Source: Geitlerinema sp. PCC 9228 (GTDB lineage: Bacteria; Cyanobacteriota; Cyanobacteriia; Cyanobacteriales; PCC-9228). Taken from it: DNA of 47,527 nucleotides. Under the pieces are notes generated by a model, which saw only the letters and a list, made by a program, of their open reading frames with translations, did not search any database and had not been told where the DNA came from. The stretch spans positions 1-47,527 of the forward strand of contig NZ_LNDC01000078.1 of the NCBI RefSeq assembly GCF_001870905.1, in the 5' to 3' direction. A program made the position numbers and the translations under genes. Shown one piece after another: positions 7,133 through 46,098 of the stretch (positions are counted from its first letter, which is position 1; each line of letters opens with the position of its first letter).

Positions 7133-7969
7133 TTAAGACCCAACACGCTGTAAAGCTTGCTCCAGTTCCGATAATTCGATAGCCCCGCTGAGGGCTTGTT
7201 CGTTAAGAAAGAAAAACGGTGTTCTATTTAAGCCCAACCGTTGTGCCAACTGCAAATCTTTTTGGATGGCTTGTTGGGCAGCCTCGCTGTTGCGATCGCG
7301 ATTCCAGGCATCCATGTCCAATCCCAACTCGGTAGCAATTTGCTTGTATAACTCTTCCCCTAACCGATCTTGATTTTCAAACAAGCGATCGTGGTATTCC
7401 CAAAACTTCCCTTGTTGCTGGGCTGCCCAGGATGCTTGCGCTGCAGGAACGGCTTGCGGATGAATGGAAGCTAACGGCAAATGCTTGTAAACCAACGTCA
7501 CCCGGTTTTGGTGTTTTTCCATAAATTGTTTTACCGTTTCGTAAGCGCGACGGCAAAAAGGACATTGGAAATCAGAAAACTCCAACAAGACAATATCTTG
7601 CTTGGCAGACCCTTTGGTCGGGGAATTGCCAATTATCGACGCCGGTTCCTTGCTCATTTTCTCTAAAAACGAGCGCCGCGCCTGCCGCATGCCTTGTTGC
7701 TGTTCTTGCTGGTAAGACTGCAAGGTTTCCATCAACACCTGCGGATTGTCGCGCAAAACCTGCAAAACTTTTTGCTCGAACTCAGCGGAGGCTTGCGTAT
7801 CTTCGCTGGCTTCCCCCCCTGCCGAACAACTCGCCAAAACAACGCCGGTCAAAACTGCCGCCAACCACCAAGACAAGCGACGCCAAGAACGCCACATTTG
7901 CTGCCACTGGCGTTTGGTAGCAGCGAACCAGCGGATGCTAGCTTGCCACAAATACAATGGAAAGTTCAT
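7133..7969 (-). CDS. DsbA-like thioredoxin-fold lipoprotein
   Basis: A lipoprotein signal is visible: a Trp/Arg-rich start, a hydrophobic stretch and the lipobox LASC (Cys about residue 48). A coiled, Gln-rich region follows, then a thioredoxin-fold domain with the redox motif FQCPFC (about 135-139) and the cis-Pro loop LNRTPFFFLN. DsbA-type proteins form or rearrange disulfides in the periplasm. The ATG at 7969 was chosen; one at 7897 would give a more compact signal peptide. The longer frame up to 8092 has no support. It lies beyond the terminator of the glycosyltransferase gene. Confidence 0.88.
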   Translation of the reverse strand: MNFPLYLWQASIRWFAATKRQWQQMWRSWRRLSWWLAAVLTGVVLASCSAGGEASEDTQASAEFEQKVLQVLRDNPQVLMETLQSYQQEQQQGMRQARRSFLEKMSKEPASIIGNSPTKGSAKQDIVLLEFSDFQCPFCRRAYETVKQFMEKHQNRVTLVYKHLPLASIHPQAVPAAQASWAAQQQGKFWEYHDRLFENQDRLGEELYKQIATELGLDMDAWNRDRNSEAAQQAIQKDLQLAQRLGLNRTPFFFLNEQALSGAIELSELEQALQRVGS

Positions 7970-8090
7970 AAAAAATTTGCCAACTCCCAGCAATTGGTTC
8001 CCATCTACTATGCCATTTTTGCCGCCAAATTGGGATGGGAAAATGGGAAAATTTGCATAGGAGTTTAGCAGAGTTGCAGGAATTCGATCC

Positions 8091-8132
8091 AAAAAAACCA
8101 GGAAATTGCCTGCTCAATCGACAATTTCCTGG
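8091..8132 (-). terminator. Strong Rho-independent terminator of the glycosyltransferase gene
   Basis: A perfect 11-bp stem (CCAGGAAATTG at 8098-8108 with CAATTTCCTGG at 8122-8132) is followed on the minus strand by seven T residues. It lies just after the stop of the gene ending at 8159. Confidence 0.85.
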
Positions 8133-8158
8133 CACTGTAAGCTACCTTATTTGCCATT

Positions 8159-9274
8159 CTAGGAACTAGAGCTTTTTTGGTAGTTGGATTGCTCAAAATA
8201 CAGGATAGTACGGAACGTTTTCAGCGTTGTCTGCCACCAAAGGTCCAAATCCCGACGCCACAAATAAAAAGGACTCAAAATCGAACTGGTTAAAAATTCC
8301 ATTTCGCAGGCAGTCACCACATCTTCTGGAATGCGGTGGCGATGTTTTTGATAAAATAAGATTGCTTTGAGAATATCTCGCCCCCAAGCCACAGGAAACA
8401 ACAGCGGCCTTTGCCAGGGTTTCCAGCGCAACATGCGGATGCGATGTCTGGCTAAACCAGTGCCCCGTACCAAAGCCAACAGATATTCTTTTTGCAGCCG
8501 TTTGCGGGGAATTTTATGGTATAATTCCATGTTGGCATTGTACCAAACTTCCCAGCCGGCCTTCTGGATGTACATGATGGCTTCCAGGTCTTCGCTGTTG
8601 AGCATGGATCCACCGCAACGACCGCTCAGGGAAGGTTTATCCGGCACGTTGTCTTGCCAGGCTTGCTTGCGAACCACCAATCCGGCAGAAGGCGGCAGCA
8701 TTTTCTTTTGCGGTTCGTAGCAGAAAGGTTCCGACCCCTTTTCGGTTATCGCCAGAAAACAAGCAATGCGTTCAAAATTGGCTGGTGGCGCTCCTTCGTA
8801 ATCCCCGTGGATTTGGCTGCCGTAGGCACCGACCTGGGGATGGTTTTGTGCAAAATGGTAGGCGGCGGCTACCCAGTTGGCATCGGGAATGGTATCGTCA
8901 TCGAGAAAACCAACCAACTCTCCTTTGGCTTCTTTGATGGCGCGAACCCTGGCAAAGGCTGCACCTTGCTGCATTTCTTTACAGTATCGCAGGGGAAACG
9001 TTGCAGACCAGTTGGCTTGATAGTAGCGAACGACTTCTTCTGTGCTATCAGTACTATTGTTATCTACAATCAGAATTTCCCAACGGAATTCGGTTGCTTG
9101 TTGCTGCTGCAAACTTGCCAAAACTTCCGGCAACCTAGCTGCACCATTGAAGGTGGGAATGGCTACGGTTAGTTCGATAGGATGCAGGTTTTCTAATACT
9201 GGGGGGGTGGCTGTTGGTTCTGTGGTTTGGCAACTTGGTGCCAGTTGTTGCCCTACCTTCCAGCTTTGGCTCAT
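8159..9274 (-). CDS. Family 2 glycosyltransferase, HpsE-like
   Basis: The 371-residue protein has a GT-A domain: ELTVAIPTFNG at the start, ILIVDNNSTDST, a GAAFARVRAI helix and the DxD-type motif FLDDDTIPD, followed by a C-terminal helical part rich in basic residues. GT2 enzymes transfer sugars from nucleotide sugars to growing polysaccharides on the cytoplasmic face of the membrane. The sequence resembles cyanobacterial HpsE, which takes part in hormogonium polysaccharide synthesis and gliding, but this is from memory of the family. The start at 9274 has a purine-rich stretch (GAGAGGGAAA) upstream. It is monocistronic. Confidence 0.85.
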   Translation of the reverse strand: MSQSWKVGQQLAPSCQTTEPTATPPVLENLHPIELTVAIPTFNGAARLPEVLASLQQQQATEFRWEILIVDNNSTDSTEEVVRYYQANWSATFPLRYCKEMQQGAAFARVRAIKEAKGELVGFLDDDTIPDANWVAAAYHFAQNHPQVGAYGSQIHGDYEGAPPANFERIACFLAITEKGSEPFCYEPQKKMLPPSAGLVVRKQAWQDNVPDKPSLSGRCGGSMLNSEDLEAIMYIQKAGWEVWYNANMELYHKIPRKRLQKEYLLALVRGTGLARHRIRMLRWKPWQRPLLFPVAWGRDILKAILFYQKHRHRIPEDVVTACEMEFLTSSILSPFYLWRRDLDLWWQTTLKTFRTILYFEQSNYQKSSSS

Positions 9275-9349
9275 GATGTTTCCCTCTCGCTTGATTTCCG
9301 TACTGTATCTTTGCAAAGCTTCAATCTAGAACCAATCTAGAACTGTTAT

Positions 9350-9535
9350 TTATAGCATTCCCTCAAAAGGATCTACACTTAACAAGGCAAGGCATAGCGC
9401 CGAAAATTTTTCGCTATCTATGCCAAGCAAGGATGTCACGACTAACCCAATCACTGGACAAAAATCGACATTCGTGTTGATTGCGTTTGGTTCATCCAGC
9501 CTTGGTCTCGTGGCAGACTCCGTTATTTCGGTCAT
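9350..9535 (-). CDS. Possible 61-residue protein, unknown
   Basis: An ATG at 9535 is preceded by AAAGGTG and opens a 61-codon frame with one mildly hydrophobic stretch (VIGLVVTSLLGI) and no recognised domain. The same DNA forms long inverted repeats typical of a structured RNA, so the frame may be accidental. Confidence 0.2.
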   Translation of the reverse strand: MTEITESATRPRLDEPNAINTNVDFCPVIGLVVTSLLGIDSEKFSALCLALLSVDPFEGML

Positions 9536-9560
9536 GACACCTTTCGCGGGTGCTTTCCAG
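9391..9560 (-). ncRNA. Candidate structured RNA upstream of tsaE
   Basis: Inverted repeats nest coherently. An outer stem joins 9531-9543 with 9429-9442 (13 bp, one bulge, one G-U). Inside it AACC/GGTT and CAATCA/TGATTG (9444-9453 with 9478-9492) form one arm and GTCT/AGAC (9505-9518) another, giving a three-way junction. Next to it GGCATAG/CTATGCC (9391-9424) forms another hairpin. The strand is not certain; minus is preferred because the G-U pair falls there. I do not recognise the family, and no T-run follows. Confidence 0.35.
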
Positions 9561-9676
9561 CCCGAAGAATCCTGCATCCGATCGTGTTAGAATAATTCCC
9601 AATCTACAGTGGTGGAATTGTCTTTCCAACCGCTCGATTGACCTGATTTGCGCTGTTTGCCCAAATAGCAACTTTG

Positions 9677-10174
9677 ATGCAGAAAGTTATTGACTTACCA
9701 GATGCCGCCACTACCTACAAACTGGGCGTTACGTTGGGAGAAACCCTATCCCCAGGTCGAATTTTGCTGTTGGTGGGAGCGTTGGGCACTGGCAAAACCA
9801 CGTTAATCCAGGGAATTGGTGCTGGATTGGGAATTACCGATGCGATCGCTTCTCCCACATTTACCCTTATTAACGAGTATCCTGAAGGCAGGGTGCCTTT
9901 ATATCATTTTGACCTCTACCGCCTGCAACCGGACGAAGTTACCGACCTCATGCCGCAGATGTATACCGATGGCATGGAAGTAGAACCGGGAATTGTTGCC
10001 ATCGAATGGGGCGATCGCTTACCCCATCCTCCCAAAGAAGCTGTTACCATTAGCCTAACCCACCTACACTCAACGCCAACAGAAGATGCCAGGCAGCTAG
10101 AAATCATTCCCGGTACTTCCCCAGAAGCCAATCGAGAAATTTTCGCAGCAATCCCAACGTTGCCACTTAGGTAG
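9677..10174 (+). CDS. tsaE: tRNA threonylcarbamoyladenosine biosynthesis ATPase TsaE
   Basis: TsaE is the small P-loop ATPase that supports the TsaB-TsaD complex in making t6A37 on tRNAs that read ANN codons. The 165-residue protein shows the Walker A motif GALGTGKTT near residue 36, the SPTFTLINEY segment, HFDLYRL and the family motif IEWGDRLP. The length is normal. The ATG at 9677 follows an in-frame TTG. It converges with the hypB end, with only a few bases between the genes. Confidence 0.93.
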   Translation: MQKVIDLPDAATTYKLGVTLGETLSPGRILLLVGALGTGKTTLIQGIGAGLGITDAIASPTFTLINEYPEGRVPLYHFDLYRLQPDEVTDLMPQMYTDGMEVEPGIVAIEWGDRLPHPPKEAVTISLTHLHSTPTEDARQLEIIPGTSPEANREIFAAIPTLPLR

Positions 10175-25552: not shown

Positions 25553-26656
25553 TTACTGGGCAAATGAAATGGTTAAATATTGGTTTTGAAATTTGGCACC
25601 GGTAACGGCTTTGTTACGCAGTTGTTGCGGTAAAAAGACATTGTGCCTTTGGTCGCCGGCTTCGATGGTCACTTCGGGACCGTATTGGGTGAGTTTGACT
25701 TGATTTTTATCAAAACTGGGCAAAAATAGGCGTACCTGACGTTGTTCGGTGTCGATGGTTATGGGGGTGGGGGCTTGTATTGCCTGCTGTTGCAGGTCGG
25801 GTAAGGCTTGCACCAACTCTTCCCAACTGTCTCCCTGGCGTTGGGGCAGGGCAGTTACCGGTAGGGGGTCAAACTGGCTGCTGGTGGCTGCCGGCACTTG
25901 GGTTTGTTGGTTGCACAAAACGCCGCCTACGGTCAAGCCTACTTGTTGGGAACTGCCCCACAAATACCGGGCGGTAGCGATCGCGGCTGGGTCGTTGTTG
26001 GTTACCAAAAAGCCGGCTACCCGCTTGGCATCGGTGATGGTGTTGCGCCCTTTTTCCAGCTGGTCGGTAATTTGGTTGAGGGGTTGGTCGATGCGATCGC
26101 TGTTGGACCAGTTCACATTCAACACGGCATTAGTCACCGGCTGTACGAAGGGAGAAAGGGCTTTCGCCAGGTCGGATTCGGCAATTACTTGACGGAACCG
26201 CCGCATGTACCAGCCCATAATTTCCGGCATGCCGATCGTGCGCAGGGTTTCTTGATTGCCGGGACCGTCAAAGACAATCAGGTCGTATTGACCGCTGGCA
26301 TCGTATTCGCGCAGGGCATTTAAAATCAGGGCGTTTTCCATACCTGGCAGTACGGCGAGTTCTTGCCCGTATACGTCTTTAAAAAAGGGGGTTTTGACGT
26401 ATTCGGCTTCCAACCGTTTTAATTCTTCCCAGGATTTTTCCAGAAGGGTGGTGCCTTGCAGCTTCACAGCTTGCAGGTTGGGGGCGATTTCGGTAGGTTT
26501 GTCAGAAACGGTAGTCCCCAACAGCAGGTGGAAGCTGGGATCGACGCTGCATAGCAAAACCCGTTGGTTTTGTTGGGCGTATTTTTTGGCGGTGGCAATG
26601 GCGATGGTGGTTCGACCCGTGCCGCCCTTGCCCAGAAATGTCAAAATCTGCGACAT
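25553..26656 (-). CDS. ArsA/Get3-like ATPase, Get3d type
   Basis: The 367-residue protein opens with a deviant Walker A motif LGKGGTGRTTIA, keeps the switch DPSFHLLLG and a FDGPGNQET region, and ends in a beta-rich domain (about 285-365) resembling the alpha-crystallin fold of the Get3d clade in cyanobacteria and plants. Canonical Get3 inserts tail-anchored proteins. The function of Get3d is not settled. It lacks an arsenite-binding Cys set. The ATG at 26656 is preferred to an upstream GTG. It follows chlG's locus on the same strand. Confidence 0.82.
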   Translation of the reverse strand: MSQILTFLGKGGTGRTTIAIATAKKYAQQNQRVLLCSVDPSFHLLLGTTVSDKPTEIAPNLQAVKLQGTTLLEKSWEELKRLEAEYVKTPFFKDVYGQELAVLPGMENALILNALREYDASGQYDLIVFDGPGNQETLRTIGMPEIMGWYMRRFRQVIAESDLAKALSPFVQPVTNAVLNVNWSNSDRIDQPLNQITDQLEKGRNTITDAKRVAGFLVTNNDPAAIATARYLWGSSQQVGLTVGGVLCNQQTQVPAATSSQFDPLPVTALPQRQGDSWEELVQALPDLQQQAIQAPTPITIDTEQRQVRLFLPSFDKNQVKLTQYGPEVTIEAGDQRHNVFLPQQLRNKAVTGAKFQNQYLTISFAQ

Positions 26657-26830
26657 ATTGCTTGTTCTGACCAAGTTTTTGGTGTACCAGTTGCTTGTTG
26701 CTTGGATGGGAATGGTGGCAGCGTAGTTGGCGTACCGGGGTCAGGGGAACCGCCATGGCAAACCAACTACGAAAACAACCATTCCTATTCGATGCCGGTC
26801 AGCAATGGCTACCGACGGTGCGACAAACGG

Positions 26831-28842: not shown

Positions 28843-29961
28843 CTAGGCGCGGTGAGATAGTAAGCCCAAAAGCTCTTCATCGGTTAAATTGCGTTTTAAC
28901 TGGGTAGAGAGTTGTCGTGTAACCAAAAGCAGCGATCGCATTTGTTCCGGTTCTAAAACGATACCGTATTGGGATAGTTTGTGGGAGAGAATTCCCCGAC
29001 CGGAATGTTTGCCAACTTGCATTTGTCTTTGCATCCCCACCTGTTCCGGAGAAAACGGTTCGTAAGTTTGGGGATTTTTTAAAACGCCAGCGGTGTGAAT
29101 TCCCGACTCGTGGGCAAATGCATTTTTTCCCACCACTGCCTTCCAACGAGGCAACCCTTCCCCCGATGCCTGTTGTACCAACTGCGAAAGGGAAAATAAC
29201 TGCCGCGTGTCTATAGACAAGTCTACACCATTGATTTGCTTTAAAACCATCACCACTTCTTCTAAGGGGGCATTGCCAGCGCGTTCCCCCAAACCATTCA
29301 CTGTGGTATTGACAGAAGTAGCGCCAGCGCGGATGCCAGCAATGGCGTTAGCAGTAGCCATTCCCAAATCGTCGTGGGTGTGCATTTCAATGGGAATATT
29401 AACCGATTGAACCAGTTTGCGAATGCGATCGCAAGTGGAAAACGGGTCCAAAATTCCGACAGTATCGCAGAAACGAAAGCGGGAAGCGCCCCAATTCTGG
29501 GATTTTTGCGCAATTTCCACGAGAAACGCTTCCTCAGCGCGGGAACTGTCTTCGCCACCAACGGATACCCACAATCCCCGCTTTACCGACCAAGCAATGG
29601 TTCGTTGCAAATACTGCAAAACCAACGCGCGGCTACCTTGAAATTTAACACCAATTTGAATATCGGAGACGGGAATAGAGATGTGAACCCGTTGCAAACC
29701 ACATTCGGCGGAAGCGGCAACATCTTCTATCCGCGCGCGGTTCCATGCCAATAAACGGCTTTTTAAACCCAAATTGGCGATTTGGCGGATGGTTTGCCGT
29801 TCTGCTTCTCCCATAGCGGGGATACCCACTTCAATTTCTGGTATTCCCATTTTGGCTAATTTTTGCGCGATCGCCATTTTCTCCGCCGGTGTAAAGGCAA
29901 CACCAGCAGCTTGTTCGCCATCGCGTAGCGTTGTGTCGTTAATGTTGATTGCTGCGTTCAT
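28843..29961 (-). CDS. nifV: Homocitrate synthase NifV
   Basis: NifV condenses acetyl-CoA and 2-oxoglutarate to homocitrate, the organic ligand of FeMo-cofactor. The 372-residue protein has the DRE-TIM metallolyase signature [19 protein letters not shown] at the start, the metal-binding [13 protein letters not shown] motif, and [20 protein letters not shown], typical of homocitrate and isopropylmalate synthases. The short C-terminal part without a regulatory LeuA domain fits NifV. It is divergent from the main nif genes and ends next to tRNA-Ala. Confidence 0.93.
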
Positions 29962-34116: not shown

Positions 34117-34158
34117 AAATACAGTCTATAAAACCAATAATTGGATTCCGGCAACACT

Positions 34159-34185
34159 CTCCCTAGGATTCTAGGGGGATTTTTT
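34159..34185 (+). terminator. Terminator after the IscA/HesB gene
   Basis: TCCCTAG and CTAGGGGGA pair around GATT and are followed by six T residues, about 45 bases after the stop. Confidence 0.75.
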
Positions 34186-34301: not shown

Positions 34302-34343
34302 GTATCTACAAATACTTTTCTGACTGGGAGAATCGTTAATAAT
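34302..34343 (+). promoter_or_regulatory. NtcA box and -10 element of nifH
   Basis: GTA-TCTACAAA-TAC (34302-34315) is a perfect match to GTA-N8-TAC, the site of the cyanobacterial nitrogen regulator NtcA. A TAATAAT -10-like element starts at 34337, 21 bases later, close to the 22-23 bases of NtcA-activated promoters, where the box replaces the -35. The predicted transcript starts near 34350. Activation under nitrogen shortage and high 2-oxoglutarate follows from known NtcA biology. Confidence 0.75.
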
Positions 34344-34446: not shown

Positions 34447-35331
<885 letters not shown>

Positions 35332-35346: not shown

Positions 35347-35404
35347 GGCAGCGCCTTGGTTATCTGTAATTTCCAATTTACCCACTCAGATGACCAGCGT
35401 TGCC
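35347..35404 (+). other. Long stem-loop between nifH and nifI1
   Basis: The arms 35347-35366 and 35387-35404 pair over 18 bp with two G-U pairs and one 2-nt bulge around a 20-nt loop. No T-run follows. It may stabilise the 3' end of nifH mRNA or reduce downstream expression. Confidence 0.7.
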
Positions 35405-35454
35405 ATAATTTTCTTGAATGAATCGGATTTTTGGATTGATAGGAGGCAACTCCC

Positions 35455-35817
35455 ATGAGCATTATGGTTCGTGCCATCATTCGGCCGGAGAAGACACCCG
35501 ATGTTTTGCAAGCATTGCTCGATGCTGGTTATCCAGCGGTAACCAAAGTAGATGTATACGGTCGGGGAAAACAACGCGGTTTGAAGATTGGTAACGTTAT
35601 CTACGACGAACTGCCCAAAGAATTGTTGATGGTGGTGGTTCCGGAAGCAGATAAAGAAGCTGTGGTCAGTACCATTTTAGAAAATGCGCGCACGGGAACG
35701 GAAGGCGCGTATGGCGACGGTAAGATTTTTATCTCCCCTGTAGAGGAAATCTATACCGTCAGCACCGGACAGCAAGAAGAAGCATCGGTTCCAACTACCA
35801 ATTTCGCCACAGTTTAA
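35455..35817 (+). CDS. nifI1: PII-like nitrogenase regulator NifI1
   Basis: NifI1 and NifI2 form a complex that binds NifDK and blocks its contact with NifH when 2-oxoglutarate is low and ammonium high. The 120-residue protein is a PII fold with MVRAIIRPEKTPDVLQAL, a T-loop region VYGRGKQRGLKIGNV and the C-terminal GDGKIFISPVEEI. The T-loop is unlike GlnB: it lacks the usual uridylylation or phosphorylation context. GGAGG precedes the ATG. Its place right after nifH is diagnostic of nif clusters of methanogens and anaerobic bacteria. Confidence 0.93.
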   Translation: MSIMVRAIIRPEKTPDVLQALLDAGYPAVTKVDVYGRGKQRGLKIGNVIYDELPKELLMVVVPEADKEAVVSTILENARTGTEGAYGDGKIFISPVEEIYTVSTGQQEEASVPTTNFATV

Positions 35818-35851
35818 TGACTTACCTCGAATAAAAGAACAATTAGAACCG

Positions 35852-35944
35852 GCTATCAGCTTGTACTGGGTTTCCAGTAGAAAGAAATGGAGGGATGCTT
35901 GTGGGTAATTGAGCCAATTCTTTCGATATTTTCAAGCTGGTAGC
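35852..35944 (+). other. Branched RNA structure between nifI1 and nifI2
   Basis: An outer 12-bp stem (35852-35863 with 35933-35944, one G-U) encloses a 6-bp hairpin (35864-35869 with 35874-35879) and a 7-bp stem (35880-35886 with 35918-35924). Together they make a three-way junction ending close to the nifI2 ribosome site. Confidence 0.6.
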
Positions 35945-35972
35945 ACCCCCCACATCACAGGAGGTGGCTTTC

Positions 35973-36368
35973 ATGAAAGAAATTCTAGCTATTATTCGCA
36001 TGAACAAAATCCAAGCAACCAAAGAAGCTTTGGTCAATGCAGGGTTTCCCGGTTTCAATGCGGTGAAAGTAGCAGGACGAGGACAGCAAGCCTTGGATGC
36101 AGAAGTTATTCAAGCTTTGAACAATCATCCCGAAGACACCAATGAAGTTTTGCCGTTACTGGCACACTGTCCGCGTTTGATTCCCAAGCGTTTGGTGAGT
36201 CTGGTGGTTCCCGACGAACAGGTATCCCGCGCGGTGGATACGTTAATCCAAGCCAATCAAACCGGCAATTCTGGCGATGGCAAAATCTTTGTTTTACCAG
36301 TGTTCGACAGCGTCCGCGTACGAACTGGAGAAGTAGGACGGGTCGCTGTTGATGAGATGACTGGCTAG
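35973..36368 (+). CDS. nifI2: PII-like nitrogenase regulator NifI2
   Basis: NifI2 is the partner of NifI1 in direct switch-off of dinitrogenase. The 131-residue protein keeps the PII frame (KEILAIIRMNKIQATKEAL, then VKVAGRGQQA, SLVVPDEQV, GDGKIFVLPVFD). Its T-loop is longer (about 38-70, with Pro/Cys), as in the NifI2 clade. The ATG at 35973 sits under a strong AGGAGG, and the in-frame GTG 9 bases earlier overlaps that site. Only 29 bp separate it from nifD. Confidence 0.92.
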   Translation: MKEILAIIRMNKIQATKEALVNAGFPGFNAVKVAGRGQQALDAEVIQALNNHPEDTNEVLPLLAHCPRLIPKRLVSLVVPDEQVSRAVDTLIQANQTGNSGDGKIFVLPVFDSVRVRTGEVGRVAVDEMTG

Positions 36369-36397: not shown

Positions 36398-38071
36398 ATG
36401 ACCGAACCGAATCAAAATAACCCGCAATGGGAAACCGATACGGATACCTTCCAGGCAACAGAGACATTGATGCGTTCCCAGTCTCCCATTGACGAAACCA
36501 CCACCCAGGAAACGGTTGAGGAAATTATTTCCGCCTATCCTAAAAAAGTTGCCAAAAAGCGCAGCAAGCATATTGTGGTTCGCGACCCAGCGCAGCCAGA
36601 ACAGGAAATTAACGCCAACGTACGTACAACCCCAGGCATTATCACCCAACGCGGATGTTCCTTTGCGGGATGTAAAGGGGTGGTTGTGGGACCGTTTGGC
36701 GATGTCGTTCACATCGTTCACGGACCGGTTGGCTGTTCTTACTATTCCTGGATGACCCGCCGCAATCAGTTCAAAACCCGGGAAGATGGGGAGAACTTCA
36801 TACACTATTGCTTCACCACGGATATGAACGAACACGACCTGGTGTTTGGTGGCATGAATAAGCTGAGGAAGGCAATTCAGGAAGCCTACGACCTGTTCCA
36901 TCCCAGAGCAATTACCGTTCACGCTACCTGTCCGGTGGGTCTGATTGGTGACGATATCCAAGGCGTTGCCAGGGAAATGGCTGAGAAGTTAAATACGAAT
37001 ATAAGTGCCTTTAACTGCGAAGGGTACAAGGGGGTCAGCCAGTCGGCAGGACACCACATCGCCAACAATGAGTTTTTCAAAAAATGGATCGGTCAGGATA
37101 CGGAAACGGAGTCTATTGAAGGCTATACGGTGAATATCCTGGGTGAGTACAACATCGGCGGCGATGCTTGGGAAATCGAGCGGGTGTTGAACAAATGCGG
37201 CATTCAAGTTATTGCGACGTTTAGTGGCGATGGTTCCTACGATGAAGCTACCAAAGCGCATTTGGCGCAGGCAAACTTGGTTATGTGCCATCGTTCCATT
37301 AACTACATGGCAAATATGATGGAAACCAAGTATGGAACCCCTTGGTTGAAGGTGAACTTTATTGGCATTCATGCCTTTGCCAAGAGTTTGCGCAAGTTGG
37401 CTCGTTTCTTTGACGACCCAGAACTGACGCAACGTATTGAAGAGGTGATTGAAGAAGAATTAGCGATCGCTGAAACCCAAATAGCAGAATACCGCCAACG
37501 CCTGGAAGGAAAAACTGTATTCCTCTTTGTCGGTGGTTCCCGCGCCCACCACTACCAAGACCTATTTGCCGATTTGGGTATGAAAACCATCGTCGCCGGT
37601 TACGAATTTGCTCACCGGGATGACTATGAAGGTCGCCAGGCACTGCCGAAAATTAAGGTCGATGCTGACAGCCGCAATATTGAAGAGTTGGAGGTCAAAC
37701 CCGACCCAGAAAACTATCAACCTCCAAAATCCGAAGAAGAATTGGAAAAACTGCGCCAGGAAAAAGTCGTTGGCGAATACACAGGGATGATGCCAGACAT
37801 GGGAGAAGGCACCCTGTTGGTAGACAACATTTCTCACCACGAACTGGATACTCTCATCAAACGGTTCCAACCGGATTTAATTGGTTCCGGTATCAAAGAC
37901 AAATACATCATTGAAAAATTCGGTATCCCCTCCAAACAATTACACAACTACGACTACGGTGGTCCTTATGCTGGCTTTTGGGGGGCTGTAAACTTTGCCA
38001 AAGATGTTGACAGCCGGGTCAACAGCCCCACTTGGCAGTACGTCAAAGCCCCGTGGCAGCAAGCTTCGTAA
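36398..38071 (+). CDS. nifD: Nitrogenase MoFe protein alpha chain NifD, insertion-containing type
   Basis: NifD holds FeMo-cofactor and half of the P-cluster. P-cluster ligands are Cys87 (TQRGCSF), Cys113 (HGPVGCSYY) and Cys178 (HATCPVGL). FeMo-co ligands are Cys297 (NLVMCHRS) and His516 (KQLHNYDY). The catalytic His219 lies in SQSAGHH. At 557 residues it is longer than the usual cyanobacterial chain because of an N-terminal extension (about 40 residues) and a charged insertion (about 405-470) like that of clostridial and green sulfur NifD. The presence of the Mo-type ligands and NifV argue for a molybdenum enzyme. Confidence 0.96.
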   Translation: MTEPNQNNPQWETDTDTFQATETLMRSQSPIDETTTQETVEEIISAYPKKVAKKRSKHIVVRDPAQPEQEINANVRTTPGIITQRGCSFAGCKGVVVGPFGDVVHIVHGPVGCSYYSWMTRRNQFKTREDGENFIHYCFTTDMNEHDLVFGGMNKLRKAIQEAYDLFHPRAITVHATCPVGLIGDDIQGVAREMAEKLNTNISAFNCEGYKGVSQSAGHHIANNEFFKKWIGQDTETESIEGYTVNILGEYNIGGDAWEIERVLNKCGIQVIATFSGDGSYDEATKAHLAQANLVMCHRSINYMANMMETKYGTPWLKVNFIGIHAFAKSLRKLARFFDDPELTQRIEEVIEEELAIAETQIAEYRQRLEGKTVFLFVGGSRAHHYQDLFADLGMKTIVAGYEFAHRDDYEGRQALPKIKVDADSRNIEELEVKPDPENYQPPKSEEELEKLRQEKVVGEYTGMMPDMGEGTLLVDNISHHELDTLIKRFQPDLIGSGIKDKYIIEKFGIPSKQLHNYDYGGPYAGFWGAVNFAKDVDSRVNSPTWQYVKAPWQQAS

Positions 38072-38087
38072 GTCTTTATCCTGGTTT

Positions 38088-38132
38088 TGCGATTGGCTAT
38101 GTTTTCCCCTTCCCTCCCCATAGCCAGTCGCA
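38088..38132 (+). other. Long stem-loop between nifD and nifK
   Basis: TGCGATTGGCTATG (38088-38101) pairs with CATAGCCAGTCGCA (38119-38132): 14 bp with one G-U and a 17-nt loop. It has no T-run. Confidence 0.7.
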
Positions 38133-38173
38133 CCCCAGCCATGCCCCGCTCATTTTTAGGAGAACATTGCACT

Positions 38174-39547
38174 ATGTTAGAAGCTACCCCCACAGAAGTT
38201 CAAGAACGGGAAGCGCTACGCATCAATCCCGCCAAAACTTGCCAACCCATCGGTGCCATGTATGCGGCTTTGGGATTGCACAACTGCTTGCCTCACTCCC
38301 ACGGTTCCCAAGGCTGCTGTTCTTACCATCGGTCTCACCTTACCCGCCACTACAAAGAACCAATTATGGCGGCAACCAGTTCCTTTACTGAGGGAACAGC
38401 GGTTTTCGGCGGTGGTGCGAACTTGCGGCAAGCCTTGACCACCATCTTCAAACTCTACAATCCCGATGTGGTGGCCATCAATACCACTTGCCTGTCGGAA
38501 ACCATTGGCGATGACTTGCCCAGCTTGATTCGGGCAGCGCAAGACGATGGTATTATTCCAGAAGACAAATTGGTGATTCATGCCAATACCCCTAGCTATG
38601 TGGGTACGCATGTCACGGGTTGGTCGAATATGGCAAAGGCGATTGTGGATTATCTGGTGCAGAAATCCGATACGCCCCAGCAACAAATTAATTTAATTCC
38701 CGGTTATGTGGAACCAGCGGATACCCGCCACCTGAAACGCTTTCTCAAAGAATTTGGGGTAGAGTCGGTGGTCTTTCCCGATACCTCCGATGTGGTAGAT
38801 ACGCCGCAAACGGGCGATTTCCGCATGTATCCCAAAGGCGGTACCCCCGTTGAGGATTTAAAAACCGCTGGCGACAGTCTGGCAACGGTGGCGTTAGGAC
38901 CTATGGCCAGCGAAGCGGCGGCAAAATCTTTGCAGAATAAGTGCGATGTCCCCTATCGGGCGCTGGATTTGCCTATTGGTGTGGCAGCATGCGATCGCTT
39001 CGTACAAACGCTTATGGAACTTACCGGAACTCAACCTCCCGAAAGTTTGGTTGACGACCGGGGTCGGCTGGTGGATATCATGACCGACATGCAGCAATAC
39101 TTGTACGGATTGCGCGTCGCTGTTTCCGGTGACCCCGACCAAGTGGTTCCTCTAACCGAGTTCTTAGTTAGCTGCGGTGCCCGTCCGGTTTACGTTATTA
39201 CCGGTACCCCCTCCAAATATTTCCGCAAACGCTGCGAAGAAATCCTCAGCAACACGGTTCCAGAAGCCATTTATAAAGACGACACCGACCTATTCTACTT
39301 GCACCAACTGATTAAAAATAATCCCGTTGATTTATTGGTGACCAACGTCTACGGCAAATACATTGCCCGCGCCGAAGACATTCCTTTGGTACGGTTCGGA
39401 TGGCCCATCTTAGACCGCGTCGGTCACAGCTATTTCCCCACCGTGGGATACCGGGGCAGCATGCACTTACTGTGTACAATTTTGAATACGCTGCTAGAAC
39501 GCAAAGACCGCGACGACCCCGACGAAGTCTTTGAATTGGTGATGTAA
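38174..39547 (+). CDS. nifK: Nitrogenase MoFe protein beta chain NifK, short type
   Basis: NifK completes the alpha2beta2 MoFe protein and supplies the other P-cluster ligands, here Cys23 (KTCQPIG), Cys48 (GSQGCCSY) and Cys106 (NTTCLSETIGDD). The protein is 457 residues, without the N-terminal arm of about 50 residues seen in Azotobacter and ordinary cyanobacterial NifK; a short chain is usual in the clostridial type. The ATG at 38174 follows AGGAGAAC. The longer upstream frame would run through the stem-loop and is rejected. Confidence 0.96.
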   Translation: MLEATPTEVQEREALRINPAKTCQPIGAMYAALGLHNCLPHSHGSQGCCSYHRSHLTRHYKEPIMAATSSFTEGTAVFGGGANLRQALTTIFKLYNPDVVAINTTCLSETIGDDLPSLIRAAQDDGIIPEDKLVIHANTPSYVGTHVTGWSNMAKAIVDYLVQKSDTPQQQINLIPGYVEPADTRHLKRFLKEFGVESVVFPDTSDVVDTPQTGDFRMYPKGGTPVEDLKTAGDSLATVALGPMASEAAAKSLQNKCDVPYRALDLPIGVAACDRFVQTLMELTGTQPPESLVDDRGRLVDIMTDMQQYLYGLRVAVSGDPDQVVPLTEFLVSCGARPVYVITGTPSKYFRKRCEEILSNTVPEAIYKDDTDLFYLHQLIKNNPVDLLVTNVYGKYIARAEDIPLVRFGWPILDRVGHSYFPTVGYRGSMHLLCTILNTLLERKDRDDPDEVFELVM

Positions 39548-39640: not shown

Positions 39641-39955
39641 ATGAAAACGCCAAAACACCATATTTTTGTTTGCGGTGGATTTCGCTTAAAAGGAGATGCC
39701 CAGGGTGTCTGTGGCAAAAAAGGGTCCGTCTCCCTACTGCAATATTTAGAAACTGAGTTGTGCGATCGCGATTTGGAAGATGTCGTCGTCTCCAGTACCG
39801 GTTGTCTCAAACAGTGCGACAAAGGACCCATCCTCATGGTCTATCCCGAAGGATACTGGTACGGCAGCGTTGACGAAGACACCGTAGACGAAATTCTCGA
39901 TGCCTTAGAATCAGGGGAAGCCGCCAGCGAGTACTTACTCACCAGCAATCCCTAA
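39641..39955 (+). CDS. Thioredoxin-like [2Fe-2S] ferredoxin
   Basis: The 104-residue protein has the ligand pattern of the thioredoxin-like [2Fe-2S] ferredoxins: Cys11 and Cys24 (CGGF, then GVCGKKG) and Cys55 with Cys59 (STGCLKQCDKGP), followed by VYPEGYWYG. Members from Clostridium pasteurianum and Azotobacter are linked to nitrogenase, though the partner reaction is not firmly known. It differs from plant-type FdxH and from 4Fe-4S FdxN of cyanobacteria. It is embedded between nifK and nifE, so a role in nitrogenase assembly or electron transfer is inferred. AGGAGAAAC precedes the ATG. Confidence 0.92.
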   Translation: MKTPKHHIFVCGGFRLKGDAQGVCGKKGSVSLLQYLETELCDRDLEDVVVSSTGCLKQCDKGPILMVYPEGYWYGSVDEDTVDEILDALESGEAASEYLLTSNP

Positions 39956-39995: not shown

Positions 39996-41366
39996 ATGAC
40001 TCAAAGTCCTATTTTCCAAGAACGCGCCAATCAAATCCATCGCAAAGGCGACAATCAACCCTTCGAACTCGCTTGCAACAAAGAAAGCCTCGCCGGTGCC
40101 GTCAGCCAACGCGCCTGCGTCTTCTGCGGTTCCCGCGTAGTTCTCTATCCCATCGCCGACGCCTTGCATCTGGTTCACGGACCCGTCGGCTGTGCCGTGT
40201 ACACCTGGGACATTCGCGGTGCCCTTTCTTCCGGACCCGAACTGCATCGCCTGAGCTTTTCCACCGACTTACAAGAGCGAGACGTTATCTTCGGCGGCGA
40301 AGAAAAACTAACCCGCGCCCTGCGGGAACTCATCGACCGCCACCAACCCAACGCCGCTTTTGTGTACTCCACCTGCATCGTCGGTATCATTGGCGACAAT
40401 TTGGAAACCATTTGCCGTCGAATGAGCGAAGAAAAAGGCATTCCCGTCATCCCCGTTCAATCGGAAGGGTTCAAAGGCAACAAACGCGCTGGCTACAACG
40501 CCGCCTGTCGCGCCATGTTCCGCCTGGTGGGAACCGGAGACACCAGCGATATTTCTCCTCACAGCATCAATATTTTGGGTGATTTTAACCTAGCTGGAGA
40601 AATTTGGATTATTCGCAAATACTTCGAACGTATGGGGGTGCAGGTAGTCGCCAACATCACCGGCGACGGTCGTGTAAGCGATTTAGCCAGGGCCCATGGT
40701 GCGGCTTTAAACGTCGTTCAGTGTTCCGGTGCCACCCTCGACCTCGCCAAAATGATGAAAGAGGACTACGGCATCCCCATCGAACGGGTTTCTTACTTCG
40801 GCGTAGAAGACATGGCAGAAGCCCTGTACCGCGTGGCTAACTTTTTTGACGACGACCCCACCATCTTACAAAGAGCCAAAGAATTGGTTCGCGAAGAACT
40901 TTCCATCCTCTATCCCCAACTGCAAGAACTTCGCAAAGATTTAAACGGCAAAAAAGCCGCCATTTACGTCGGAGGTGCTTTCAAAGCCTTCTCTTTGGTA
41001 AAAGCTTTCCGTTTGTTGGGAATGGATGTGGTTATGGTAGGTTCGCAAACGGGAACCACCGAAGATTACAAGGAACTCCACGAAATCACCGACGAAGGAA
41101 CAATTATTGTGGATGATTCCAACCCATTGGAACTATCTGCTTTTTTAACAGAAAAAAATGTGGATATTTTTGTCGGTGGCGTGAAAGAGCGACCGATTGC
41201 CTACAAGTTGGGAATTGGTTTCTGCGACCACAACCACGAACGCAAAGAAGCGTTGGAAGGTTTTGTGGGCATGTTGAACTTTGCTAAAGAAGTCCACCGC
41301 ACAGTTACGTCGCCGGTTTGGCGATTTGTTCCCCGTAATATTTCTCCAGCCACATTGGAAGAATAA
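39996..41366 (+). CDS. nifE: FeMo-cofactor scaffold NifE
   Basis: NifE with NifN forms the scaffold on which NifB-co is converted to FeMo-co. The 456-residue protein is a NifD paralogue with Cys41/Cys44 (RACVFCGSR), Cys66 (HGPVGCAVY) and the STCIVGIIGDN segment, plus NILGDFNLAGE and FVGGVKERPIAYKLG. The start at 39996 lies 40 bp after the ferredoxin gene; no clear ribosome site precedes it (a pyrimidine-rich TTCCC stretch does), so translation may depend on upstream flow. Confidence 0.95.
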   Translation: MTQSPIFQERANQIHRKGDNQPFELACNKESLAGAVSQRACVFCGSRVVLYPIADALHLVHGPVGCAVYTWDIRGALSSGPELHRLSFSTDLQERDVIFGGEEKLTRALRELIDRHQPNAAFVYSTCIVGIIGDNLETICRRMSEEKGIPVIPVQSEGFKGNKRAGYNAACRAMFRLVGTGDTSDISPHSINILGDFNLAGEIWIIRKYFERMGVQVVANITGDGRVSDLARAHGAALNVVQCSGATLDLAKMMKEDYGIPIERVSYFGVEDMAEALYRVANFFDDDPTILQRAKELVREELSILYPQLQELRKDLNGKKAAIYVGGAFKAFSLVKAFRLLGMDVVMVGSQTGTTEDYKELHEITDEGTIIVDDSNPLELSAFLTEKNVDIFVGGVKERPIAYKLGIGFCDHNHERKEALEGFVGMLNFAKEVHRTVTSPVWRFVPRNISPATLEE

Positions 41367-41373
41367 ACGTAAG

Positions 41374-41447
41374 TTGGGGAATCCCCTGTTCCCTTCCTCA
41401 AGGGGACAGTTTTCCCCGCTTCTCCCTCTCCGTTCCTTGTTCCCCAA
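41374..41447 (+). other. Nested stems between nifE and nifN
   Basis: TTGGGGAA (41374-41381) pairs with TTCCCCAA (41440-41447), and inside it CTGTTCCC (41386-41393) pairs with GGGGACAG (41402-41409) with one G-U. The structure ends seven bases before the nifN start, so it could hide the translation start. Confidence 0.6.
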
Positions 41448-41454
41448 AATAGTC

Positions 41455-42861
41455 ATGACCAAAAAAATCGCTCGCTTTAAAAAGACCCCCGATGCCTACG
41501 TTTCCACCACCAATGCCTGCAAACTCTGCAAACCCATGGGTGCGTGTTTGGCATTTCGCGGCATCGAAGGATGCGTTCCCTACTTGCACGGTTCCCAAGG
41601 ATGTGCGACTTATATGCGTCGCTATACCATCAGCCATTTTCGCGAACCGATGGATATTGCCTCCTCTTCCTTGGGAGAAAAACACGCCGTTTATGGAGGT
41701 GGTCCCAATTTAAAAAAAGGAATTCTCAACGTTATCGATAAATATGGGGCTAATATGGTCGGTATCGCCACCACTTGCCTCACGGAAACCATTGGTGACG
41801 ACTTGCCCATGCTGCTGCAGGAATTTCATGTGGAAATGAAAGAAGCCGAGGTAACGCTGCCAATTCTGGTCAATGTTTCCACTCCCAGCTACAGCGGTAC
41901 CCACATGGAAGGGTTCCACGCCACAGTGCGCGCGGTTGCCGACCAACTGGCAGACCAGCAAGAACCTCCCACAGGCAGCTTGCCGACCTCCTTTGTGAAT
42001 CTCCTGCCAGGATTGGTTTCGCCAGGGGATATTCGCCATCTCAAAGATATTTTGGCTGATTTTGGCATTGCCAGTGTTATTTTGCCCGATATTTCCGATA
42101 CGCTGGATGGTGCCCCGCAAGTAGAATATCAGAAAATTCCTCCCGGCGGTACGCCAGTGGCTCATATTCGCAATATGGGCAATGCCGCAGCCACATTGGA
42201 ATTCGGTAGAACCCATATTTTAACGGGAGATACCGGCGGTCAACTGCTGGCGGAACGATTTGGTGTTCCCCACTATCCCTTGGGAATGCCTATTGGATTG
42301 CAAGAATGCGATCGCTTTTTTGAAGCTTTAGCCACCGCCAGCAACCGTCCTATCCCTGACAAGCACCAGCAAGAACGGGGTCGTTTGGTGGATGCGTATG
42401 TAGACGGACACAAATATATTTCCGGCAAAAAAGCCATCGTCTACGGCGAAGAAGATTTGGTCGTCGCTATGACCTCCTTTTTATCAGAAATCGGCATCAA
42501 ACCCGTCCTCTGTGCCTCCGGTGGCAACAGCGGCTATTTGCAAGAAGCGATCGCAACTGCCACTGGCGATATTCTCTCAGAACCTCCCCTAGTGGAAGAC
42601 AACGTAGACTTCTACGAAATTGCCGACAAAGCGAAATCCCTAGAACCCGACCTCCTCATCGGCAACAGCAAAGGCTTTGCCCTCGCGCGCCAGCTTGAAA
42701 TCCCCATCATTCGCGTTGGCTTCCCCATTCACGACCGCTTTGGTGCCCAACGCATCTTACACCTGGGCTATCGCGGTACCCAAAACTTATTCGACCAAAT
42801 CGTTAACGCTGTCATTGCCAAAAAACAAACCGACTCCCCCGTAGGATATAGTTATTTGTAA
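41455..42861 (+). CDS. nifN: FeMo-cofactor scaffold NifN
   Basis: NifN is the partner of NifE and a NifK paralogue. Starting at the ATG at 41455 gives 468 residues with TNACKLCKPMGACLAFRGIEGC near the start, HGSQGCATYMRR (Cys50), TTCLTETIGDD, and the C-terminal GNSKGFALARQL and VGFPIHDRFGAQ motifs. The N-terminal Cys cluster is like NifN of anaerobes. The longer upstream frame overlaps nifE and is rejected. No good ribosome site is seen at the start, which lies just after the nested stems. Confidence 0.94.
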   Translation: MTKKIARFKKTPDAYVSTTNACKLCKPMGACLAFRGIEGCVPYLHGSQGCATYMRRYTISHFREPMDIASSSLGEKHAVYGGGPNLKKGILNVIDKYGANMVGIATTCLTETIGDDLPMLLQEFHVEMKEAEVTLPILVNVSTPSYSGTHMEGFHATVRAVADQLADQQEPPTGSLPTSFVNLLPGLVSPGDIRHLKDILADFGIASVILPDISDTLDGAPQVEYQKIPPGGTPVAHIRNMGNAAATLEFGRTHILTGDTGGQLLAERFGVPHYPLGMPIGLQECDRFFEALATASNRPIPDKHQQERGRLVDAYVDGHKYISGKKAIVYGEEDLVVAMTSFLSEIGIKPVLCASGGNSGYLQEAIATATGDILSEPPLVEDNVDFYEIADKAKSLEPDLLIGNSKGFALARQLEIPIIRVGFPIHDRFGAQRILHLGYRGTQNLFDQIVNAVIAKKQTDSPVGYSYL

Positions 42862-42957: not shown

Positions 42958-43003
42958 GATCCCCCTCCTCCTCACCTGCCAACCAAACCAAGGAGAACCT
43001 CAA

Positions 43004-44287
43004 ATGACCGTCTCCATCAACTACGAACAACATCCCTGCTTCAATCCCAAAATCAAAGGCAAATTCGGACGAGTTCACCTCCCTGTTGCCCCCAAATGCA
43101 ACATTCAGTGCAACTACTGCAACCGCAAATACGACTGCGTCAACGAAAGTCGTCCTGGGGTCACCAGTAGCATTTTATCCCCACAACAGGCTGTTTTGTA
43201 TATGGATAAAGTTCTCGAAAAACAGCCGAGAATCACCGTTGCCGGTATTGCCGGACCCGGCGATCCTTTTGCCAATCCCGAGGAAACCATCGAAACCATG
43301 CGCTTGTTGCGCGATCGCTATCCCGATCTAATTTTATGCCTCTCTTCTAACGGACTCAACCTAAAACCAGAATATATTCAAGAAATTGCTAAAATCGGCG
43401 TATCTCACGTAACCGTCACCCTCAACGCCATTGACCCCGACATTACCCAAAAAGTCTATCGCTGGGTAAGAGACGGCAAAACCATCTATCAAGGTAGAAA
43501 AGGCGCTGAATTACTCTTACAACGACAACTAGAAGCGATCGCAAATTTAAAAGCCGCCGGCATCGTCGTAAAAATCAACACCATCGTCATGCCAGGCATC
43601 AACGACCACCACATCGTCGAAGTTGCCCAAAAAATGTCCGAAATGGGAGCAGACTTATTCAACGCCATGGCCCTGCTTCCCACCCCAGACACCCCCTTCC
43701 AAGAATTAGGCGAACCCGATGCCAAAACCCTCGCCAAAATTCGCAAAGAATGCGAACAATACCTGCCCCAAATGCGCCACTGTACCCGTTGCCGCGCCGA
43801 TGCCGTCGGGTTGTTAGGCGCAGACCAATCCGAAGAATTCCACGGTTGTCTCATAGCCTGTTCCCAAGCCTTCATTCCCCTCGACCAGAAAAACCGTCCT
43901 TACGTCGCCGTTGCCTCCACCGAAGGCTTACTCGTCAACGAACATTTGGGAGAAGCCAGAGAACTGCAAATTTGGAAACCAACCGAAAACGGCTTCACCC
44001 TCATAGAAACCCGCGCCACCCCAGAACCCGGTTTGGGATTTGAACGTTGGAAACAAATGGCAGAACAACTGCACGACTGTCGCGCCGTCTTAGTCAGCGG
44101 CATCGGTACCACCCCCAAACGAGTTCTCACCAAATACGGCATCCAACCCGTCGAAATGAGTGGCTTTATCGAAATGGGATTGGAAACCATCTACAACGGC
44201 GGCGACGTTAGCAAACTCAAAGGCAAACGCAAATCCATCAACGGCGTTGCTGTTGGTTGCAGCGGCACTGGCGAAGGATGCGGCTAG
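43004..44287 (+). CDS. nifB: FeMo-cofactor biosynthesis radical SAM protein NifB
   Basis: NifB fuses two [4Fe-4S] units with a carbide and sulfur to make NifB-co. The 427-residue protein has the radical SAM motif KCNIQCNYCN (Cys32, 36, 39), the SAM-binding GIAGPGDPFAN, and a C-terminal NifX-like domain (about 295-410; VNEHLGEARELQIW) that binds the product. It ends in a Gly/Cys tail. AGGAGAA precedes the ATG at 43004; the longer frame upstream only reads through the repeats. It is the last gene of the cluster, in contrast to its first place in ordinary cyanobacterial nif clusters. Confidence 0.96.
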   Translation: MTVSINYEQHPCFNPKIKGKFGRVHLPVAPKCNIQCNYCNRKYDCVNESRPGVTSSILSPQQAVLYMDKVLEKQPRITVAGIAGPGDPFANPEETIETMRLLRDRYPDLILCLSSNGLNLKPEYIQEIAKIGVSHVTVTLNAIDPDITQKVYRWVRDGKTIYQGRKGAELLLQRQLEAIANLKAAGIVVKINTIVMPGINDHHIVEVAQKMSEMGADLFNAMALLPTPDTPFQELGEPDAKTLAKIRKECEQYLPQMRHCTRCRADAVGLLGADQSEEFHGCLIACSQAFIPLDQKNRPYVAVASTEGLLVNEHLGEARELQIWKPTENGFTLIETRATPEPGLGFERWKQMAEQLHDCRAVLVSGIGTTPKRVLTKYGIQPVEMSGFIEMGLETIYNGGDVSKLKGKRKSINGVAVGCSGTGEGCG

Positions 44288-44299
44288 TCACAGCGTAGC

Positions 44300-44546
44300 G
44301 AGCGTACCGAGCGTGGGAGCGTGGGAGCGTGGGAGCGTGGGAGCGTGGGAGCCTGGGAGCCTGGGAGCTTGGGAGCCTGGGAGCCTGGGAGATATAATTG
44401 GTTGTTTTCTCCGACGCTCCGATGCTCCGATGCTCCGACGCCCCGACGCCCCGACGCCCCGATGCCCCGACGCCCCGATGCTCCGACGCTCCGATGCCCC
44501 GATGCCCCGATGCCCCGACGCTCCGACGCTCCGACACCCCCACACC
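44300..44546. repeat. Octamer-repeat element, right copy
   Basis: The stretch GCGTACCGAGCGTGGGAGCG is shared with the left copy. About ten GTGGGAGC/CTGGGAGC units lead to GGGAGATATAATTGGTTG, TTTTCTCCGACG, and some fifteen CTCCGATG/CCCCGACG units. Arms are partly complementary, allowing one large hairpin. It fills most of the 347-bp gap after nifB, where no gene is present. Confidence 0.9.
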
Positions 44547-44634
44547 CCCTCCCCATCTTCTTCACATTTCTTCAAAAGCGATCGCATAATAGAAAAAGAA
44601 CCCACAGCAAGCAGGTAACAACCAAGGGGGAACC

Positions 44635-46098
44635 GTGGCAACCACCAAAGAACGTACTAAATGGGATGTGGGGCGATTTTTCCGTACTCTCGCCTACTAT
44701 CGCGTGATTCCATTTGTCGGAAACTTCGACCGCCAGACAAAACCCAAAATCAACCAACCCCAAAAGCAAGGCGTGGTTTTGGTTGCCGGCGCTACCGGTG
44801 GTGTTGGCAAACGAGTCGTTCATCAATTGCAGCAACAAGGATATTCTACGCGATCGCTGGTGCGAGATGCCCAACGCGCCCAAGAAATTCTCGGCAAAGA
44901 TAGCAAAAAAACCGACCTCGTCGAAGCCGATTTAACCCTTCCCGAAACCCTAACCCCGCGCCTGTTTGCCAACATCAGCGCCATTATCTGCTGTAGCGGC
45001 ACCCGCGTACAACCCACAGAAGGCGATACCCCCAACCGGGAAAAATACTACCAAGGCATTAAATTCTACATGCCAGAAGTCGTCGATACACCCGAAGTTG
45101 TCGAATACCGAGGCATCCAACACCTGCTACAAGTAGCTGTCAAAAACGCCAAAGAAACCACCATCTTCGACTTTTCCCAACCTTCCCCAGACCTCAAAGA
45201 AACCTGGGGAGTTCTCGACGACGTGGTCATGGGAGGCGTTAGCGAAAGCAATATCTACCTCACCGACGAAGCCGCTGTCTTTGCTGGCAACATCTCTACT
45301 GCCAACTCCGGCGGTTTTGCTTCCGTGAGAACCCGCAACTTCGCCAACTCCCTAGATTTATCCAACTTTGAAGGCATCCAACTACGGGTCAAAGGCGACG
45401 GCAAACGCTACAAATTTATTCTGCGAACCGACCCCAAATGGGATAGCGTCTCCTACTGCTATTCCTTCGACACCGTCTACAACATTTGGCAAACCGTACG
45501 CATTCCGTTTTCCGAATTTATTCCCGTCTTCCGCGCCAAAACCCGCTACGACAAAGAATCCCTCGACCCCAGCAAAATTTGCTCCATTCAATTGATGTTA
45601 AGCAAATTTGAATACGACCGCCAGCTCAATCCCAAGTTTTCCACCGGCGGCTTCCAAATGCAAATTGCCTCTATCCAAGCCTACGGCGGCAAACAATTGC
45701 CCCATTTTGTCCATATTAGCTCTGCAGGCGTTACCCGTCCCGGTCGTCCCGGTCTGAATTTAGACGAAGAACCCCCAGCGGTTCGCATGAACGAGCAACT
45801 CGGCGGTATTCTTACTTGGAAATTGCGCGGCGAAGAGGCGATTCGCAACAGCGGCTTACCCTATACCATTATCCGTCCTTGTGCCCTCACGGAAGAACCC
45901 GGTGGCAAATCTCTGGTTTTCGACCAAGGGGACAATATGCGCGGACAAGTCAGCCGCGAAGATGTCGCTGAATTGTGCTTGCAAGCTTTAAATCGAGAGG
46001 AAGCTTTTAACAAAACGTTTGAAGTGAAATCTGGCGACGAAAACCGACCAGCCGATTTTGATTGGCAAGGTTGTTTTGCTAACTTGCAGGCGGATTAG
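44635..46098 (+). CDS. Atypical SDR with CIA30 domain (HCF173-like)
   Basis: The 487-residue protein begins with a Rossmann motif VVLVAGATGGVGKRVV (about 47-62). It is interrupted by a CIA30 domain (about 165-350; DFSQPSPDLKETWGVLDDVVMGGVS, GDGKRYKFILRTD), and then resumes the SDR fold (FVHISSAGVTRPGRPG, LRGEEAIRNSGLPYTIIRP). This layout is that of plant HCF173, which promotes psbA translation, and of its cyanobacterial relatives, so a role in photosystem II or thylakoid complex assembly is inferred. A GTG start at 44635 follows GGGGGA. It is a host gene right after the nif island. Confidence 0.82.
   Translation: MATTKERTKWDVGRFFRTLAYYRVIPFVGNFDRQTKPKINQPQKQGVVLVAGATGGVGKRVVHQLQQQGYSTRSLVRDAQRAQEILGKDSKKTDLVEADLTLPETLTPRLFANISAIICCSGTRVQPTEGDTPNREKYYQGIKFYMPEVVDTPEVVEYRGIQHLLQVAVKNAKETTIFDFSQPSPDLKETWGVLDDVVMGGVSESNIYLTDEAAVFAGNISTANSGGFASVRTRNFANSLDLSNFEGIQLRVKGDGKRYKFILRTDPKWDSVSYCYSFDTVYNIWQTVRIPFSEFIPVFRAKTRYDKESLDPSKICSIQLMLSKFEYDRQLNPKFSTGGFQMQIASIQAYGGKQLPHFVHISSAGVTRPGRPGLNLDEEPPAVRMNEQLGGILTWKLRGEEAIRNSGLPYTIIRPCALTEEPGGKSLVFDQGDNMRGQVSREDVAELCLQALNREEAFNKTFEVKSGDENRPADFDWQGCFANLQAD

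Follow-up and report, generated by a model that had tools for sequence, protein, structure and literature searches.

Organization of the nif cluster

The window, meaning the whole stretch of 47,527 nucleotides that was analysed, is contig C78 of the 4.80-Mb, 223-contig genome (G000) of Geitlerinema sp. PCC 9228, and it carries a nif cluster in which two PII-family genes, nifI1 and nifI2, lie beside nifH and nifD. The published genome of this strain comprises 4.77 Mb with 195 scaffolds over 1 kb, and its cluster was described in 2016 as nifXSU, iscA, nifHI1I2DK, fdxN and nifENB, with nifV and arsA upstream (PMC5061849). The window has the same order, nifX-S-U-iscA-nifH-I1-I2-D-K-fdx-E-N-B, with nifV and an ArsA-like gene upstream.

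25553-26674: ArsA-like ATPase, upstream of the nif cluster, named from the sequence by eye
28843-29961: nifV, likewise upstream of the nif cluster
34158..34179, + strand: candidate intrinsic terminator 3' of iscA, a 9-pair stem followed by TTTTTT
34302..34343, + strand: candidate NtcA-activated promoter upstream of nifH, GTATCTACAAATAC at 34302-34315, 22 nt, then AATAAT
34507..35331, + strand: nifH, nitrogenase Fe protein (TIGR01287, 456 bits, over the cut-off)
35347..35408 (approximate limits), + strand: stem-loop in the nifH-nifI1 gap, from folding of the 123-nt gap
35441..35446, + strand: ribosome site AGGAGG of nifI1, from the sequence
35455..35817, + strand: nifI1, PII-family nitrogenase regulator subunit, ATG start, 120 aa, complete ORF
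35959..35964, + strand: ribosome site AGGAGG of nifI2, from the sequence
35973..36368, + strand: nifI2, PII-family nitrogenase regulator subunit, ATG start, 131 aa, complete ORF
36398..38071, + strand: nifD, anaerobe-type, with a long N-terminus and an insert near residues 412-462 (TIGR01282, 686 bits)
38087..39547 (ORF limits; likely real start near 38174), + strand: nifK (TIGR01286, 458 bits)
39641..39955, + strand: 2Fe-2S ferredoxin, from a profile match
39996..41366, + strand: nifE (TIGR01283, 618 bits)
41281..42861 (ORF limits; real start probably downstream of nifE), + strand: nifN, from a profile match
42998..44287, + strand: nifB with a C-terminal NifX-like domain (TIGR01290, 401 bits; Nitro_FeMo-Co domain)

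The nifH gene is single-copy in the genome. NifD matches Clostridium pasteurianum NifD and chain A of PDB entry 9p1x, and NifK, when begun at 38174, matches C. pasteurianum NifK and 9p1x chain B from residue 1. The 123-nt gap between nifH and nifI1 folds at -37.7 kcal/mol (z -2.97), and this stem-loop may set the levels of nifH over nifDK message.

Other G+C-rich hairpins were seen at the same gap in loci L106-L110, and none in the Roseofilum or Hydrococcus loci. On the 3' side of nifB, positions 44250-44600 hold minisatellite-like tandem short repeats that are open in several frames, with peptides such as GSVGAWEP or RRSDAPMP, followed at 44635-46098 by a NAD-dependent epimerase-like protein with an inserted domain, named by eye and apparently unrelated to nitrogen fixation.

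Identity and integrity of NifI1 and NifI2

AGGAGG stands 8 nt upstream of the ATG for nifI1 and nifI2 alike. The start given for nifI2 in the ORF list is the GTG at 35964, which overlaps AGGAGG 35959-35964, so the ATG at 35973 is the likely start. The Pfam P-II profile is covered over its whole length by both proteins (NifI1 79.4 bits, NifI2 77.6 bits, cut-off 25). An AlphaFold2 model of NifI2, built from a 28-sequence alignment, has the PII fold with a mean pLDDT of 84, and the top Foldseek matches of this model are all PII proteins at E about 1e-11; the fold of NifI1 is assigned from full-length profile and sequence matches. The original prediction of two intact genes with complete folds and strong ribosome sites is thus borne out by two full ORFs, whole-profile P-II coverage and AGGAGG sites, the fold being modelled for NifI2 and assigned by profile for NifI1.

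The two proteins are distinct, adjacent paralogues within the nif operon, and the GlnB of the host is only 34-42% identical to them. The NCBIfam GlnB/GlnK equivalog models score NifI1 and NifI2 at 50 and 64 bits, far under the cut-off of 202, as divergent PII proteins should. Assignment to canonical cyanobacterial GlnB was rejected on these scores (50-64 bits versus 202) and on the T-loops, which differ from RGSEY with Ser49. The best PDB sequence match of NifI1 is 9p1x chain H (2e-27) and that of NifI2 is 9p1x chain G (1e-29), the next-best PII protein lying at about 1e-18 in each case. Their earlier naming as NifI1 and NifI2 therefore stands, each being closest to its own NifI type in the PDB and far under the GlnB/GlnK cut-offs.

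Besides these two chains, 9p1x holds nitrogenase alpha and beta chains, which the window NifD and NifK match over almost their full length. Its chain list counts 6 alpha, 6 beta, 12 NifI1-like and 6 NifI2-like chains, which suggests that each alpha-beta pair goes with a trimer made of two NifI1 and one NifI2.

Ligand-site residues

By alignment, the equivalents of the PII residues for 2-oxoglutarate and Mg-ATP are kept as Q40 and K55 in NifI1 and as Q39 and K72 in NifI2, together with a GDGK B-loop in both proteins and R117/R119 in NifI2; the roles of these residues in holding 2-oxoglutarate and Mg-ATP are presumably those known for PII proteins in general. NifI1 differs from that of 9p1x by a B-loop that is 3 residues longer and by a Ser near the C-terminal end, at the GlnB R103 position, where 9p1x NifI1 has Arg, and for this reason the behaviour of its nucleotide site may depart somewhat from that in 9p1x. 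Reading the insert and the missing R103 as decay was rejected, since nearly all bacterial NifI1 proteins aligned have both. The T-loop region of NifI2 is about 6 residues longer than in 9p1x; such a long T-loop is found across bacterial NifI proteins and is no oddity of this host.

A candidate NtcA promoter and the nitrogen control of the host

NtcA-activated promoters have the consensus GTAN8TAC, about 22 nt, and TAN3T. A candidate site of this kind precedes nifH in the window, and each of the nine cyanobacterial loci whose upstream region is intact has a match to at least 8 of the 9 positions, with identical 22-nt spacing, located 205-260 nt upstream of nifH. Dinucleotide shuffles gave a mean of 1.04 matching loci of 9 and a maximum of 4, and the real-DNA controls gave 6 of 71 non-cyanobacterial nifH upstream regions and 7% of 400-bp windows slid along the contig. 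The motif is degenerate, and the nine loci represent about four lineages.

Downstream of iscA, the candidate terminator would split the upstream nifS-U-iscA part from nifH; the number of terminator-like sites in the region is within chance, and the iscA site is argued from its position. The terminator search reported no candidate on the + strand from nifH to nifD. With the candidate promoter before nifH, the candidate terminator after iscA and none between nifH and nifD, we infer a single nifH-I1-I2-D-K unit that is predicted to be NtcA-activated. The sections of the 2016 paper at hand describe no NtcA-type promoter for the PCC 9228 cluster (PMC5061849). The new element here is this candidate promoter, common to the cyanobacterial loci, which would place nifI1I2 under the 2-oxoglutarate/NtcA control of the host.

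The genome carries NtcA (381 bits), GlnB, one Amt and one nifH, with glnB as a separate gene on contig C113, and a second, ordinary cyanobacterial nitrogenase was not found in it. The expectation that NifI1 and NifI2 stand beside the host's own GlnB and NtcA was correct insofar as both are present in the same genome. For Fe-protein ADP-ribosylation by the DraT/DraG system, a search for DraT (PF07357) gave no match in this genome, nor in any control genome. A psbA gene lies about 7 kb from ntcA, both on C58, and ntcA was also reported on the scaffold of a psbA in the published genome, in which chlLNB is absent (PMC5061849). ChlL, of the light-independent protochlorophyllide reductase, likewise had no match in the present assembly, and the other 19 genomes searched scored above the cut-off. 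Another PII-like protein of this genome (L115, contig C133, 2756-4267) directly follows an apparent bicarbonate transporter SbtA and is probably SbtB, named from context only.

Distribution, selection and origin

NifI1 was found in 7 of 386 cyanobacterial genomes, which form a single clade and so represent one or a few events rather than seven. NifD was detected at E 1e-100 or better in 59 cyanobacterial genomes and falls into two types, 7 at 76-100% identity to the window NifD and 52 at 43-49%; NifI1 accompanies all 7 of the window type and none of the 52 ordinary ones. These counts agree with the claim that such control is absent from most cyanobacteria. Three further cyanobacteria with nifI1I2 were named in the 2016 paper (PMC5061849), and Sodalinema spp. 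and Coleofasciculus chthonoplastes PCC 7420 were reported to carry nif clusters with nifI1I2 (PMC12694226; Bolhuis et al. 2010 as cited there).

Among the cyanobacterial relatives sampled, NifI1 is 71-78% identical to that of the window. Among close cyanobacterial relatives, nifI1 has dN/dS values of 0.06-0.14 and nifI2 of 0.05-0.20, which lie within the range of nifD, nifK and nifH, and both genes are under purifying selection of about the strength seen for nifDK. This bears on the reading of nifI1I2 as passengers of a transferred cluster with no regulatory effect in the host, where control would be exerted by NtcA or other transcriptional means only. That GlnB and NtcA were already available in the host speaks for such passengers, but the low dN/dS over several close pairs, the intact ORFs and ribosome sites in the window, and the retention of NifI in every sampled cyanobacterium with this nitrogenase speak against them, making the reading quite improbable. 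NifI is also intact in G116 although nifH and nifD are broken in that assembly, a further point against passengers that is ambiguous in itself.

In that G116 locus (L109, contig C306, about 9300-9840 and 7521-8204), the end of nifH is fused to nifU in one reading frame and nifD breaks off at about 246 residues, with nifI1, nifI2, nifK, nifE, nifN and nifB intact; the damage to nifH and nifD is either real decay of nitrogen fixation or misassembly.

In a tree of concatenated NifH, NifI1, NifI2, NifD and NifK from 49 genomes, the 8 cyanobacterial rows, that of the window among them, fall into a single clade (SH-aLRT 100), next to which stands a deltaproteobacterial MAG (99). Since it groups with an anaerobic deltaproteobacterial lineage, the cluster was probably acquired by transfer. 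Published work puts such cyanobacterial clusters among Desulfobacterota, and the clusters of Sodalinema and Coleofasciculus are, like that of the window, anaerobe-type and Desulfobacterota-like in oxygenic cyanobacteria, although of different lineages (PMC12694226).

A putative direct switch of nitrogenase

In methanogens, the site of NifH on NifDK is blocked by NifI1,2, an effect that 2-oxoglutarate undoes together with Mg and ATP, and ammonium switch-off requires both NifI subunits (PMC9765008). In Methanococcus maripaludis and relatives, NifI1,2 is likewise made of two PII paralogues from the nif operon and targets NifDK, a target that would hold here by analogy; the window operon differs from that of M. 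maripaludis in having a candidate host NtcA-type promoter instead of NrpR control. As far as sequence can tell, the anatomy of the window fits the methanogen mechanism, and the strict pairing of NifI1 with an anaerobe-type NifDK also suits a direct inhibitor; from the methanogen work and 9p1x we infer NifDK binding, reversal by 2-oxoglutarate and ammonium switch-off here as well.

NifI1,2 is thus quite probably a direct PII-type off-switch of NifDK behind a host NtcA-type promoter, acquired together with the anaerobe-type nitrogenase. In the proposed mechanism, the nifH-I1-I2-D-K-fdx-E-N-B module would have come with that nitrogenase from an anaerobic, deltaproteobacteria-like lineage. NifI1,2 would bind NifDK at low 2-oxoglutarate, the nitrogen-replete state, and keep the Fe protein away, and high 2-oxoglutarate with Mg-ATP would make it release NifDK. 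One metabolite, 2-oxoglutarate, would then govern both transcription through NtcA and enzyme activity through NifI1,2.

The nifI1I2 genes and the switch hypothesis are already published, in 2016 for PCC 9228 (PMC5061849) and in 2025 for Sodalinema (PMC12694226). The 2016 paper proposes the same post-translational control and states that it is unstudied in cyanobacteria. A Sodalinema strain with such a cluster fixes nitrogen, and the sections of PMC12694226 at hand report no ammonium test for it; the literature search found no biochemical or physiological (ammonium) test for any NifI-bearing cyanobacterium. If the switch works, some oxygen-producing cyanobacteria block nitrogenase by direct protein action, as anaerobes do, and not by transcription alone, and an enzyme gained by transfer can arrive with its own regulator and become part of the nitrogen circuit of the recipient. 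The question is directly testable, as PCC 9228 serves as a model of nitrogen fixation and of photosynthesis on sulfide.

PII proteins sense ATP/ADP as well as 2-oxoglutarate, and the main trigger of a working switch in a phototroph might be energy charge, through ADP/ATP at light-dark or sulfide changes, instead of ammonium. The NifI1 B-loop, unlike that of 9p1x, would suit such a trigger, as would the Sodalinema strain, which has a cluster of this kind and needs a light/dark regime to fix nitrogen (PMC12694226); yet the known trigger of NifI1,2 is 2-oxoglutarate (PMC9765008), and energy charge is considered unlikely to be the main signal. A related proposal holds that NifI1,2 closes nitrogenase as ATP falls or ADP rises at dusk, or when photosynthesis switches between water and sulfide, while the shared 2-oxoglutarate pool also drives transcription of the operon by NtcA. 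Such a light or energy gate is a speculative idea with a small chance of being correct; if true, it would mean that an anaerobe switch had been rewired into the daily and redox cycle of a phototroph. The 2-oxoglutarate-governed off-switch of NifDK is the preferred reading.

Cys66 of NifI2 and an oxygen signal

The original prediction also allowed that oxygen-linked signals could be added to the switch, that is, that NifI1,2 had gained an oxygen- or redox-linked signal in an oxygen producer. One cysteine, Cys66, lies in the T-loop of the window NifI2, and the 2016 paper ties nifI1I2 to oxygen in words (PMC5061849). Against such a signal, none of the nine other cyanobacterial NifI2 proteins aligned has Cys66, NifI1 has no cysteine, and neither protein bears an added domain. 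Redox sensing through Cys66 was rejected on its absence from the other cyanobacterial copies, and this part of the prediction is not supported, leaving an acquired oxygen or redox signal very improbable. In 9p1x, NifI2 also carries a cysteine at the corresponding alignment position, and a T-loop cysteine is therefore no mark of oxygenic hosts.
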